A DNA stretch of 64,000 nt from Nocardioides sp. zg-1228 (GTDB lineage Bacteria > Actinomycetota > Actinomycetes > Propionibacteriales > Nocardioidaceae). The translations under genes were made by a program, and so were the position numbers. Below are positions 59,940-62,780 of this stretch, piece by piece; the stretch's first letter is position 1; every line of letters starts with the position of its first letter. The notes beneath the pieces were generated by a model. It was not told the DNA's origin. It saw only the letters and a list, made by a program, of their open reading frames with translations, and made no database searches. The stretch spans positions 1,488,001-1,552,000 of the forward strand of contig NZ_CP070961.1 of NCBI RefSeq assembly GCF_017086465.1, given 5' to 3'.

Positions 59940-60317
59940 ATGAACGTGGTCATCGCCGTGGTCGTGGTCGTGGCGGTCGCGATCGGGCTGGGCGTGTGGT
60001 GGGCCGTGGACGACGCGGCCGACAAGAGCGCCACCGAGCGCGGCACGTGCGGCGGCGCCACCTGGGAGCTCACGACCGAGCGGGAGGACGGCGGCACCGA
60101 GGTCAGCGCCGAGCTGCAGTCGGCCGGACCGGGCGAGGAGTGGCAGGTCGAGCTGACCCGCGACGACACGTCCCTGCTCAGCGGCGTCCGCACGACCGAC
60201 GAGGACGGCGAGATCGACGTCGACGCCTTCAGCTCCGGCGACTCGGGCGACGCGTCCTACTCCGTCACCTTCACCCCCGCCGACGGGGAGCCCTGCACGG
60301 CCACGATCGGCTCCTGA
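59940..60317 (+). CDS. Small membrane-anchored protein with two-cysteine beta domain
   Basis: A 125-residue protein. ATG 59940 is 10 bases after an AAGGAGGA ribosome site; GTG 59934 is too close but in frame. Residues about 2-22 are an uncleaved-looking hydrophobic anchor (VVIAVVVVVAVAIGLGVWWAV). The domain (about 35-125) runs from RGTCGGATWELTTERE to GEPCTATIGS, with a cysteine near each end. It is paralogous to the next gene and to residues 112-207 of the protein at 13519. It lacks the His/Asp run. Position next to a sensor kinase gene suggests an envelope role. Function unknown. Confidence 0.8.
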   Translation: MNVVIAVVVVVAVAIGLGVWWAVDDAADKSATERGTCGGATWELTTEREDGGTEVSAELQSAGPGEEWQVELTRDDTSLLSGVRTTDEDGEIDVDAFSSGDSGDASYSVTFTPADGEPCTATIGS

Positions 60318-60367
60318 CCCACCACGAAGCGCGGCCCGTCCGGGCCACCCGACCTGAGGAGTACCCC

Positions 60368-60751
60368 ATGAAGAAGACGCTCATCGCCACCACCGCCCTG
60401 GTCGCCACCGCCGCGGCCGGCACCACCGTCCTCGTCGCGTCGCCCGCCAGCGCCGACGTCGAGCGGCGCGGCACCTGCGCCGGCGCGACCTTCGAGCTCA
60501 ACGTCGACCGCGAGGGCCGCCGCGGCTTCGAGGTCGACGCCGACATCGACCGGGCCCGCCCGGGCAGCCAGTGGCGCGTGGCCATCCGTCACGACGGCAA
60601 GCTGGCGGTGTCCCGCGTGCTGCGCGCGGACGACGAGGGCGAGCTCAGCCTCGACACGTTCCGCCGCAACACCCCCGGCAAGGACACCTTCAAGCTGACG
60701 GTGACGCCCGCCGGCGGGAAGTCCTGCTCGCTGAAGGTCACCGTGCGCTGA
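60368..60751 (+). CDS. Small secreted protein with two-cysteine beta domain
   Basis: A 127-residue protein from ATG 60368 with GAGGAG upstream. Residues 1-30 are a cleavable signal peptide (MKKTLIATTALVATAAAG, cut likely after ASPASA). The mature part (RRGTCAGATFELNVDREG to GKSCSLKVTVR) is the third copy of the same domain, with paired cysteines. It follows the membrane-anchored paralogue by 50 bases and converges with the histidine-kinase gene. Function unknown. Confidence 0.82.
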   Translation: MKKTLIATTALVATAAAGTTVLVASPASADVERRGTCAGATFELNVDREGRRGFEVDADIDRARPGSQWRVAIRHDGKLAVSRVLRADDEGELSLDTFRRNTPGKDTFKLTVTPAGGKSCSLKVTVR

Positions 60752-60775
60752 GCGACGGCTCCGCAGGGGCCTGGG

Positions 60776-62074
60776 TCAGGCCGTCCGCAACGTGACGGCG
60801 ACCCGGGCTCCTCCCATGTCCGAGGTGCCCGCCTCCAACGCGCCGCCGCAGCTCTCGGCCGTGCGGGCCGCGATCGAGAGGCCGAGCCCGGTGGAGCCGC
60901 CTCCGCTCGACCCGCGGCCGGTGGCGTCGAGCCCGGGCGGCAGGCCCGGGCCGGCGTCCTCGACGACCAGCTCGACCACGTCGTCCTGCGCGTCGAGGGT
61001 GATCCGCACGGCCGCGTCGTCGGGGGTGTGGGAGAAGACGTTGTCGAGCAGCACGTCGACCAGCGCCTCCAGGTCGGCGCGGCTGGCCCGCAGGAGCGGC
61101 CCCGCCGGTGCGAGGTGGACCTCGTAGGGGCGGCCCTGGTCCTCGGCCAGCGGCTCCCAGTGGCGTACGCGCTCGGTGATCACCGCGACCGCGTCGGTGC
61201 GGGGGTCCAGCCCCTCGCGCTCGGAGCGCCGGGCCTCGCGGACGATCTCGTCGACGGTGGCCTGCAGGGCGTCGAGGTCGCCGCCGAGCCGGTGGCGCAG
61301 CAACGGGTCGTCGACCGCCTCGACCCGCAGCCGCAGGGCGGTGACCGGCGTCCGCAGGCGGTGGGAGAGGTCGGCGACGTTGGCCCGCTCGCGCGCGAGG
61401 AGCAGCTGGATGCGCCCGACCAGCCGGTCCACCGCGCTGGCGAGCTCCTGCACCTCGGGCGGGCCCGACACCGCAGGGAGCGGGGTGACGACGCCGGTGC
61501 CGCCGAGCGAGCGGGTGTGCCGGGCGAGCTGCCGGATCGGAAGCACGAACGAGCGCCCCAGGCGGTCGACCACGGCGAGCGAGCCGGCCAGGAGCACGAG
61601 CGCGAGCAGCGCGAGGAGCCCCCACGCCGCCCCGACGGCCGAGTCGAGGCCGGGCTCGTCCACGACGACACGGATCACCGGGGTCTGCGACGGGAGCGCG
61701 GAGTTGCCGCCCCGCGAGACCGGCACGAGGAGCTGCGACCCACCGGGCACGTCGTCCACGCGCGCCCGACCGGTGTTGCGGGCGTCGAGGACCAGCGCGC
61801 CCTGTCCGGGGTCGGGGCCGATCTCCGGCCCGTCGGGGTAGAGCACGGTCACCCGTGCGTCGCGGTCGCTGTCGTTGACGCGGTCGACGTACTGCGCGAC
61901 CGCGCCCGCGTCCTGGCCCGACACGACGGTCTCCACCGCCTGGACCTCCAGCGCGGCGCGGGCCAGCCGGTCCTCCAGGGCGTAGCTGCGCACCAGGATC
62001 ATCATCGGCACGAGCATCGCGAGCAGGACCATGGAGATCGCGGCCGCCGCCGTCACGAGGAGGCTGCGGCGCAC
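60776..62074 (-). CDS. Sensor histidine kinase, OmpR-partner type
   Basis: A 432-residue membrane kinase from ATG 62074, one base after the regulator's stop. Transmembrane helices at about 8-29 and 147-170; the sensor between (about 30-145) is periplasmic or extracellular in topology. A HAMP segment (about 171-225) leads to HisKA with H238 in DLSHRLRTPVTALRL, then the ATPase domain with N-box VLLDNVFSHTP, G1 VEDAGPGLPPG and G2 GLGLSI. It should phosphorylate the regulator from 62076-62780. Its stimulus may be sensed with the small secreted proteins encoded just downstream on the other strand, by inference. Confidence 0.95.
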   Translation of the reverse strand: MRRSLLVTAAAAISMVLLAMLVPMMILVRSYALEDRLARAALEVQAVETVVSGQDAGAVAQYVDRVNDSDRDARVTVLYPDGPEIGPDPGQGALVLDARNTGRARVDDVPGGSQLLVPVSRGGNSALPSQTPVIRVVVDEPGLDSAVGAAWGLLALLALVLLAGSLAVVDRLGRSFVLPIRQLARHTRSLGGTGVVTPLPAVSGPPEVQELASAVDRLVGRIQLLLARERANVADLSHRLRTPVTALRLRVEAVDDPLLRHRLGGDLDALQATVDEIVREARRSEREGLDPRTDAVAVITERVRHWEPLAEDQGRPYEVHLAPAGPLLRASRADLEALVDVLLDNVFSHTPDDAAVRITLDAQDDVVELVVEDAGPGLPPGLDATGRGSSGGGSTGLGLSIAARTAESCGGALEAGTSDMGGARVAVTLRTA

Positions 62075-62075
62075 C

Positions 62076-62780
62076 TCAGTCGTCCTCGGCCTGGTCGGGC
62101 CCGGGCGCGGCGAGTCGTACGCCGACGCCGCGCACGGTGGTCAGGTAGCGGGGCGAGCCGGCGGTCTCGCCGAGCTTGCGGCGCAGCCACGACAGGTGCA
62201 CGTCGACGGTCTTGTCCGAGCCGCCCCACGGCTGGCGCCACACGTCGACCAGCAGGTCACGCTTGGTCACCACCTCGCCGGGTCGCTCGGCGAGGTGGGC
62301 GAGCAGGTCGAACTCGCGCGGCGTCAGGTCGATCGCCCGGCCGTCGAGCTGCACGCGGCGACCGGCCAGGTCGACGGACAGGCCGCCGACGGTGAGGGTC
62401 GTGGGCCGCCGCCGGCCGGACGCGGCGCGGCGCAGCACCGCGCGGACGCGGGCGTCGAGCTGGGCGCTGGTGAAGGGCTTGACGACGTAGTCGTCGGCGC
62501 CGGCGTCGAGGGCCCCGACGAGCGACGGGTCGTCGGCGCGGGCACTGGCGATGATCACCGGCACCTCGCTCACCGCCCGCAGCATCGACAGCACCTGGGT
62601 GCCGTCGACGTCGGGCAGGCCGAGGTCGAGCACGACCAGGTCGGGGGAGGAGTCGACGGCGAGCTGCAGCCCGCCCATCCCGGTCGGCGCCGAGGTGACC
62701 GTGTGGCCGCACTCGCGCAGGCCCCGCACCAGCAACGGCCTGATCCGGTCGTCGTCCTCGATGATCAGCACCTCGGCCAC
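62076..62780 (-). CDS. OmpR/PhoB family response regulator
   Basis: A 234-residue regulator from GTG 62780, with TACGGT 6 bases upstream. Receiver 1-118: EDDD near 8-11, phosphoacceptor D52 (VVLDLGLPDVDG), K100 region (DYVVKPFTSAQL). Winged-helix DNA-binding domain about 130-225 (DLTPREFDLLAHLAERPGE, SDKTVDVHLSWLRRKLGE, VRGVGVRL). Organised as an operon with the kinase that follows one base later. It diverges from an exported-protein gene that may be a target. Confidence 0.96.
   Translation of the reverse strand: MAEVLIIEDDDRIRPLLVRGLRECGHTVTSAPTGMGGLQLAVDSSPDLVVLDLGLPDVDGTQVLSMLRAVSEVPVIIASARADDPSLVGALDAGADDYVVKPFTSAQLDARVRAVLRRAASGRRRPTTLTVGGLSVDLAGRRVQLDGRAIDLTPREFDLLAHLAERPGEVVTKRDLLVDVWRQPWGGSDKTVDVHLSWLRRKLGETAGSPRYLTTVRGVGVRLAAPGPDQAEDD

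Follow-up and report, generated by a model that had tools for sequence, protein, structure and literature searches.

In Streptomyces, CseA (of CseA-CseBC-SigE) is an extracytoplasmic accessory lipoprotein that stands beside an OmpR-type two-component system; CpxR is likewise OmpR-type, and CpxP is a helical protein with LTXXQ motifs, CpxP and Spy belonging to the LTXXQ-motif Pfam family. CpxP of Escherichia coli is described (PMC4985592) as a periplasmic accessory protein that detects misfolded proteins of the envelope and, as long as cells are free of stress, inhibits its two-component system. Two reports (PMC4991794, PMC3754957) describe HbpS of Streptomyces as a secreted protein that interacts with the sensing domain of SenS and modulates its autophosphorylation, with phosphorylated SenR activating hbpS, senS and senR; the latter (PMC3754957) also gives HbpS as an octameric haem-binding protein, the main portion of which is a DUF336 domain (PF03928). 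Another actinobacterial accessory protein is the subject of PMC13343842. Here we describe a stretch of 64,000 nucleotides (nt) of Nocardioides sp. zg-1228 (contig NZ_CP070961.1, positions 1,488,001 to 1,552,000; hereafter the window) that encodes three homologous two-cysteine domains of exported type, about 95 residues each, in members A, B and C, which lie beside two-component systems of two unrelated kinds. We think it rather probable that such domains are exported, regulator-controlled accessory proteins, and that the A-type members are partners of the NarL-type sensor.

The arrangement resembles HbpS-SenS-SenR in that a protein whose sequence suggests export is encoded beside a kinase/regulator pair, in the window and for 149 of the 202 members collected here. 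Conserved boxes that precede the members are putative sites at which the regulator might activate them, and A-type members, which co-diverge specifically with the sensor, may act on its sensing domain; for B and C such co-divergence is not clear. No sequence relation between the members and HbpS was found in Pfam scans, in which PF03928 was absent from the matches of A, B and C and of the 61 rows scanned from our set A4 (E-value up to 0.1); by analogy, A-type members probably work as HbpS does without belonging to its family. The members differ from CpxP and Spy in being predicted, from the models of A and C, as all-beta, and no LTXXQ family is listed among their Pfam matches. The OmpR-type regulator of the window scores best against CseB, but its 186.5 bits lie under the curated cut-off of 350; unlike CseA, B and C have no cysteine near the N-terminus, and a lipobox-like start is present in only 3 of 201 members.

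The original prediction had placed the three domains where we find them, and alignment and profile comparison show them to be homologous. Identity among the domains is 26-36%, varying with pair and alignment, and both cysteines, the central tryptophan and several glycines are invariant. The shared pattern proposed earlier needs small corrections: its opening suits A alone, since the stretch from the cysteine to Gly-Ala is shorter by one residue in B and C, and the last position of the pattern is isoleucine rather than valine in B. The description "secreted" is likewise safest for C, since B has a hydrophobic anchor without an obvious cleavage site; B would be a membrane-anchored, and C a signal-peptide, version of the same domain. 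An alternative in-frame GTG start for B lies at 59934, and start positions in general may be off, as genes were called with a purpose-written codon-usage script. A profile of the three members finds exactly the A, B and C places in the 4.05 Mb genome (E-values 6e-61 to 6e-40), plus distant relatives elsewhere; since the query contains A, B and C, only the missing fourth copy in that genome is informative.

As had been suggested, no named family for the domain was found among the families listed in Pfam, NCBIfam and PHROGs, in which A, B and C gave weak scattered matches, all under the curated cut-offs in Pfam and NCBIfam. The rows of A4 likewise gave only weak scattered matches in Pfam and NCBIfam (61 rows in the Pfam scan, E up to 0.1), and the profile matched nothing among PDB sequences under E 0.39. 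Among the papers listed we recognised none on this family, and nothing relevant on Nocardioides two-component systems, Ig-like (immunoglobulin-like) secreted proteins or the box sequences, in a literature search whose coverage excludes most subscription journals, so that a record may exist in print. A mobile-element origin was considered and set aside, domain A having no match in plasmids or phages (tblastn, E up to 0.01). Matches occur in 133 of 215 genomes of the genus, in 74 of 293 sampled genomes of the order (7 of 37 genera) and, across the phylum, in 24 of the 396 genomes sampled, which represent 21 of 237 genera; apart from the genome described here, these 24 are from other classes. The loci that we fetched hold 202 distinct members from 227 hits, identical proteins having been merged before counting; the pool merges several searches, one of which favours A-type members, and includes one doubtful member (L043_4, 42.5 bits). 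Three of 48 members were dropped from set A2 (L043, L062, L063), one of 59 named-locus domains from A4 (L102), and further ones from A5. Exactly two cysteines are found in the domain of 186 of 201 members. The best reading, in which we have moderate confidence as part of the whole explanation, is an unnamed family of small, putatively exported Ig-like proteins that would be accessory parts of Actinomycetota two-component systems. A weak and doubtful relative that lacks the two cysteines lies at L043:6826-7233, beside a divergent regulator-like gene.

The neighbours in the window are those originally named, a HisKA_3 kinase with a NarL-type regulator (14175-16117, plus strand) and a HisKA kinase with an OmpR-type regulator (60776-62780, minus strand). 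A is followed on one strand by the NarL-type kinase and regulator genes, and B and C run towards the HisKA kinase, behind which lies the OmpR-type regulator. When neighbours were tabulated for profile hits in other genomes the link to two-component genes was present there too. In the 149 linked cases a kinase gene is next downstream when a fellow member is skipped: the gene is of NarL type and runs in the member's own direction for 71 members, and it encodes a convergent HisKA kinase for 78; the other 53 of the 202 meet neither. Strict adjacency to a kinase gene, on either side, holds for 109 of the 202, vs 4 of 356 controls, which were genes of the same loci separated from any member by five genes or more; the control count is of strict neighbours, and 41 of the 149 reach the kinase only across a fellow member. 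The genome itself has 46 HATPase_c matches, 45 of them above cut-off. Linkage to two unrelated kinds of system, from which the original prediction had argued, is therefore repeated, but the claim that the domain is always beside such a system is true of the window and not of the family. The NarL-linked members (n=71) stand in 34 flanking contexts with 30 upstream gene families, a contig edge counting as one, and the HisKA-linked members (n=78) in 15; on a tree of all 202, built from few columns and with many forks unresolved, context labels change 22 times vs a mean of 94 in shuffles. In other classes members are again beside both kinds of two-component system: 9 of 20 fetched loci hold a full pair with a member next to its regulator or its kinase gene (L258, L259, L263, L266, L267, L268, L270, L272, L273), and in L261 it adjoins a regulator gene alone; several of the remaining loci are cut by contig ends. 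Some gene orders there, kinase-regulator-member for one, were unseen in the Nocardioides loci; member divergent from regulator also occurs.

Kinase and member also tend to be absent together. Among 24 member-less Nocardioides genomes (a non-random pick from the genus genomes without a match) the NarL-type kinase of the window was matched in one and the HisKA kinase in three (E up to 1e-30), and no member lay within the fetched 1.5 kb either side of those matches; one genome counted as member-less, G001, has a weak profile match (E 0.003), yet locus L068 has no member in the gene calls. In 22 genomes in which only unlinked members had been seen, the NarL-type kinase was found in six, two of which (L222, L224) carry an overlooked member directly upstream of it, and the HisKA kinase was also found in six. 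Two of these HisKA kinases (in G177 and G128) are a few kilobases from members, and the other four belong to a related system beside a gene that we take to be ApbE-like. Related HisKA/OmpR-type systems in L217, L218, L219 and L233 lie beside different small proteins with exported-type starts and the ApbE-like gene, perhaps a parallel accessory arrangement; the small proteins of L217 and L219 have D-rich tails.

Upstream of most A-type, NarL-linked genes lies an inverted repeat, GGTRCTAGYACC, followed by AYCGGACA-like bases (the N box), and upstream of B genes lie direct repeats of CCTTARC with 11-nt spacing (the O box). Using weight matrices trained on Nocardioides only and a 1% threshold from pooled controls, the upstream regions of which may contain true sites, we found the N motif over threshold at 57 of 67 NarL-linked genes and the O motif over threshold at 37 of 38 B genes; in HisKA-linked loci the O motif also passes in 26 of 40 promoters of the regulator. 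A NarL-linked member whose upstream sequence was too short was left out, as were the other-class members of L269 and L271, which lack 100 nt upstream. Of the 53 unlinked genes 18 passed as well (14 by N, 4 by O), and so did 14 of 22 held-out genes of other classes (3 N, 11 O). With controls from other classes alone, 13 of the 22 pass (7 N, 6 O); in those controls the O motif has a 99th percentile of 8.2 and a best score of 19.4, higher than in the pooled set, and the N motif a best score of 4.4, which is lower. Variants of the N box such as GGTCCCGGGACC were seen by eye in several other genes below threshold. The exact sequence GGTNCTAGNACC occurs at only two places in the genome (a reversed control pattern occurs 16 times on each strand), and the second place is 103 nt before the gene for a 290-residue protein that has an exported-type start and a D/G-rich linker like that of A. 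Of 22 sites for a longer N pattern in 16 sister genomes, 15 are directly before a member, one is before a 290-residue-type gene and a member, and six are elsewhere. These six include two sites before a tiny open frame with an ABC exporter-like gene behind it and one before the gene of a D-rich repeat protein with an exported-type start. A third box, CTCAYN6CTCAY with at most one mismatch, is found at 21 of 53 unlinked members vs 15 of 643 controls, counts that are not an independent test because the box was found in the same sequences, and it looks like the site of an unlinked OmpR-type regulator. The two-cysteine family appears to be under the positive control of two-component systems. The gene for the 290-residue protein (L275:1604-2476, near 1607 kb of the genome) matches no family above cut-off, and in L155 and L103 the gene just before a member is a homologue of it. 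The third box consists of direct repeats of CTCAY with 11-nt spacing and is often near TGAGAG (for example in L041, L054, L121 and L163).

The members could on these grounds be nothing but output, exported envelope proteins that are turned on by response regulators, have no sensing role and lie near the regulator because promoters are shared. The boxes upstream of linked and of many unlinked members speak for this, as do the N boxes common to other genes, two of them for exported proteins, the varied gene order in other classes, and B and C, which give no clear sensor-specific signal. We nevertheless hold it unlikely, if still the most serious of the alternatives: the member is kept with the kinase across 34 contexts, member and kinase are jointly absent, and A-type members co-diverge with the sensor part in a way that they do not with the kinase domain or the regulator. 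This last point was measured in 64 NarL-linked loci, those in which the member directly adjoins the gene of a kinase no shorter than 380 amino acids (aa) that has a regulator next to it (7 of the 71 members were unused). Distances among A-type members correlate with those among the N-terminal sensor parts of the kinases with r 0.83, vs 0.42 for the kinase domain and 0.29 for the regulator. Given kinase domain and regulator, the partial r between member and sensor is 0.80, a value that none of 500 permutations reached (permutation of such matrices being liberal), and the partial r between member and kinase domain is -0.03; with rate-matched, fast kinase columns the member-sensor partial r is still 0.80, and it is 0.75 in 52 core loci. 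Along the kinase the correlation is highest at residues 101-175 (0.86 at residues 101-150, then 0.83); it is 0.61 in the first transmembrane stretch (TM1), drops around TM2 and is 0.25-0.52 in the cytoplasmic part. The NarL-type regulator shows the mirror pattern and correlates with the kinase domain, as expected from their known contact. One branch of the family, the A type, seems to evolve jointly with the outer, sensing part of the sensor beside it. This hints at a new partner of such sensors outside the membrane, and contact between A-type members and the NarL-type sensor is probable. The sensor domain of the NarL-type kinase, putatively Cache-like, had no match among PDB sequences up to E 10.

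Several observations weigh against an accessory, sensor-contacting role. Fifty-three of the 202 lack a kinase gene as downstream neighbour (for one of these a kinase gene lies upstream), and all three boxes are missing from 14 of the 53. Both flanks are shared by 42 of the 78 HisKA-linked members, most of which descend from one site. Only 3 of 10 upstream regions of other-class NarL-type loci, L261 included, pass the N threshold. For B and C, co-divergence specific to the sensor is not clear (partial r -0.05 and 0.27 in 37 HisKA loci), and in 12 metH-type loci the sensor and kinase columns can hardly be separated (partial r 0.42 vs 0.37). The distances also share phylogeny, and to this the liberality of the permutations is added. 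Finally, the end of the kinase gene that encodes the sensor is the one next to the member gene, which stands immediately 5' of it in the 64 loci used, so that recombination could tie the two without contact: member and sensor-coding DNA would recombine as a block while the kinase part is exchanged, and regulator and kinase domain do behave as another block. The correlation is lower in the DNA-nearest TM1 stretch than at residues 101-150 and falls again around TM2, which speaks against a recombination tie, and we consider this explanation distinctly improbable.

AlphaFold2 models of the A and C domains have mean predicted local distance difference test (pLDDT) scores of 96.5 and 97.1 and predicted template modelling (pTM) scores of 0.86 and 0.88, and they agree, where different folds would have counted against the original prediction, in an eight-strand, two-sheet Ig-like sandwich of the same strand order. 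By model, both are immunoglobulin-like beta-sandwiches; for both the best VIA match is the same antibody Fab chain (Z 10.8 and 10.9, root-mean-square deviation 2.1 and 2.2 over 88 residues). Because this is a common fold, no family assignment follows, and a known family sought by structure was rejected when Foldseek and VIA returned generic Ig-like matches. Foldseek found nothing under E 1e-3 for the C model and, as its best match for the A model, one CBM56 domain (E 8.4e-4, TM-score 0.44). The cysteines are located in or beside the first and last strands of both models, and a disulphide between them is predicted on that basis. It is very unlikely that the members are structural envelope proteins (wall or matrix binders) with a merely historical kinase neighbourhood, for although Ig-like folds are frequent in adhesion and carbohydrate-binding proteins and A's best Foldseek match is the CBM56 domain, members are linked repeatedly to two kinase classes that are unrelated, the link returns outside the class of Nocardioides, and the boxes are conserved.

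We therefore return to members as accessory proteins and propose the following mechanism, for which computation shows the homology, the modelled fold, the linkage, the conserved boxes and the sensor-specific co-divergence of the A type, while export, disulphide formation, regulator binding and kinase contact are inferred. The response regulator of the linked system would bind the conserved box and turn on the member gene; in the NarL case the kinase and regulator genes would be turned on together with it, and the system would therefore control itself. The member would then be exported, its first and last strands pinned by the disulphide, and kept at or outside the membrane. In NarL-type systems it would contact the extracytoplasmic domain of the adjacent kinase and modulate it as a co-sensor or feedback partner. 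In OmpR-type systems B and C would mainly be regulated envelope outputs, and the divergent gene U would be the better candidate for a sensor partner; unlinked members would be further outputs of the same or related regulators. The small sensor or ligand module first imagined for all three domains has indirect support, from co-divergence, in NarL-type systems only; B and C are genes with regulator-like boxes rather than clear sensor partners. The boxes, the A-type co-divergence with sensors, the unlinked quarter of the family and gene U are additions to the original prediction. A larger claim joins these parts. Actinomycetota would use a portable exported Ig-like domain as the outside partner of two-component sensors. 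Two kinase classes without common origin would have acquired it, with varying gene order; the regulator that it serves would also control its production; the A type would touch the sensor domain; and paralogues would be controlled in trans, both by that regulator and by a third one of OmpR type that is not linked to them. Together these would constitute an undescribed envelope-signalling network, and this we advance tentatively, as something short of probable. Many sensor kinases have no known signal, and a family that served, if this is true, as the outside partners of many of them would give a handle on what those kinases detect. For each system the conserved boxes are a guide to its regulon (the exact N box has only two places in the genome), and it could be examined here how a single family of proteins serves kinases of two unrelated classes.

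Gene U, a small open frame without a Pfam or NCBIfam match, co-diverges with the sensor part of the HisKA kinase (0.67 in the 37 HisKA loci), which makes it a better candidate than B or C for the sensor partner in the OmpR-type system. In L217 a small protein likewise stands next to the related HisKA kinase, but its homology to gene U is not significant; against the one in L219 there is a weak profile match (E 7e-6, from a tiny set). Gene U is conserved in sister loci.

Table 1. Features of the window (positions count from its first letter).
Feature	Position	Strand	Description
Member A	13519..14142	+	207 aa; predicted signal/anchor (hydrophobic start), D/G/H-rich linker, C-terminal two-cysteine Ig-like domain at about residues 112-207
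Member B	59940..60317	+	125 aa; N-terminal hydrophobic anchor and two-cysteine domain
Member C	60368..60751	+	127 aa; start resembling a signal peptide, then the two-cysteine Ig-like domain
NarL-type (HisKA_3) sensor histidine kinase	14175..15452	+	presumed extracytoplasmic domain at about residues 30-178
NarL-type response regulator	15449..16117	+	assigned by family search
HisKA/HAMP sensor histidine kinase	60776..62074	-	convergent with B-C
OmpR-type response regulator	62076..62780	-	best NCBIfam model CseB, 186.5 bits, under cut-off 350
Gene U	62894..63313	+	small anchored two-cysteine protein; divergent from OmpR-type regulator; missed by member profile
N box	13443..13468	+	inverted repeat GGTACTAGCACC (13443-13454) and conserved bases after it; 76 nt before gene A; putative NarL-type regulator site
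O boxes	59829..59868	+	CCTTARC-type direct repeats spaced by 11 nt, upstream of gene B; putative OmpR-type regulator site
O box CCTTAGCCGCGCCTTAAC	62818..62835	.	perfect; divergent promoter between OmpR-type regulator and gene U

Two paralogous protein-kinase-like genes (11742-13364 and 16114-17496) flank the A locus on the opposite strand, and this flanking recurs in sister genomes. The window also holds a complete ribosomal RNA operon (16S, 23S and 5S; 19443-24837) and an RNase P RNA (52394-52757).

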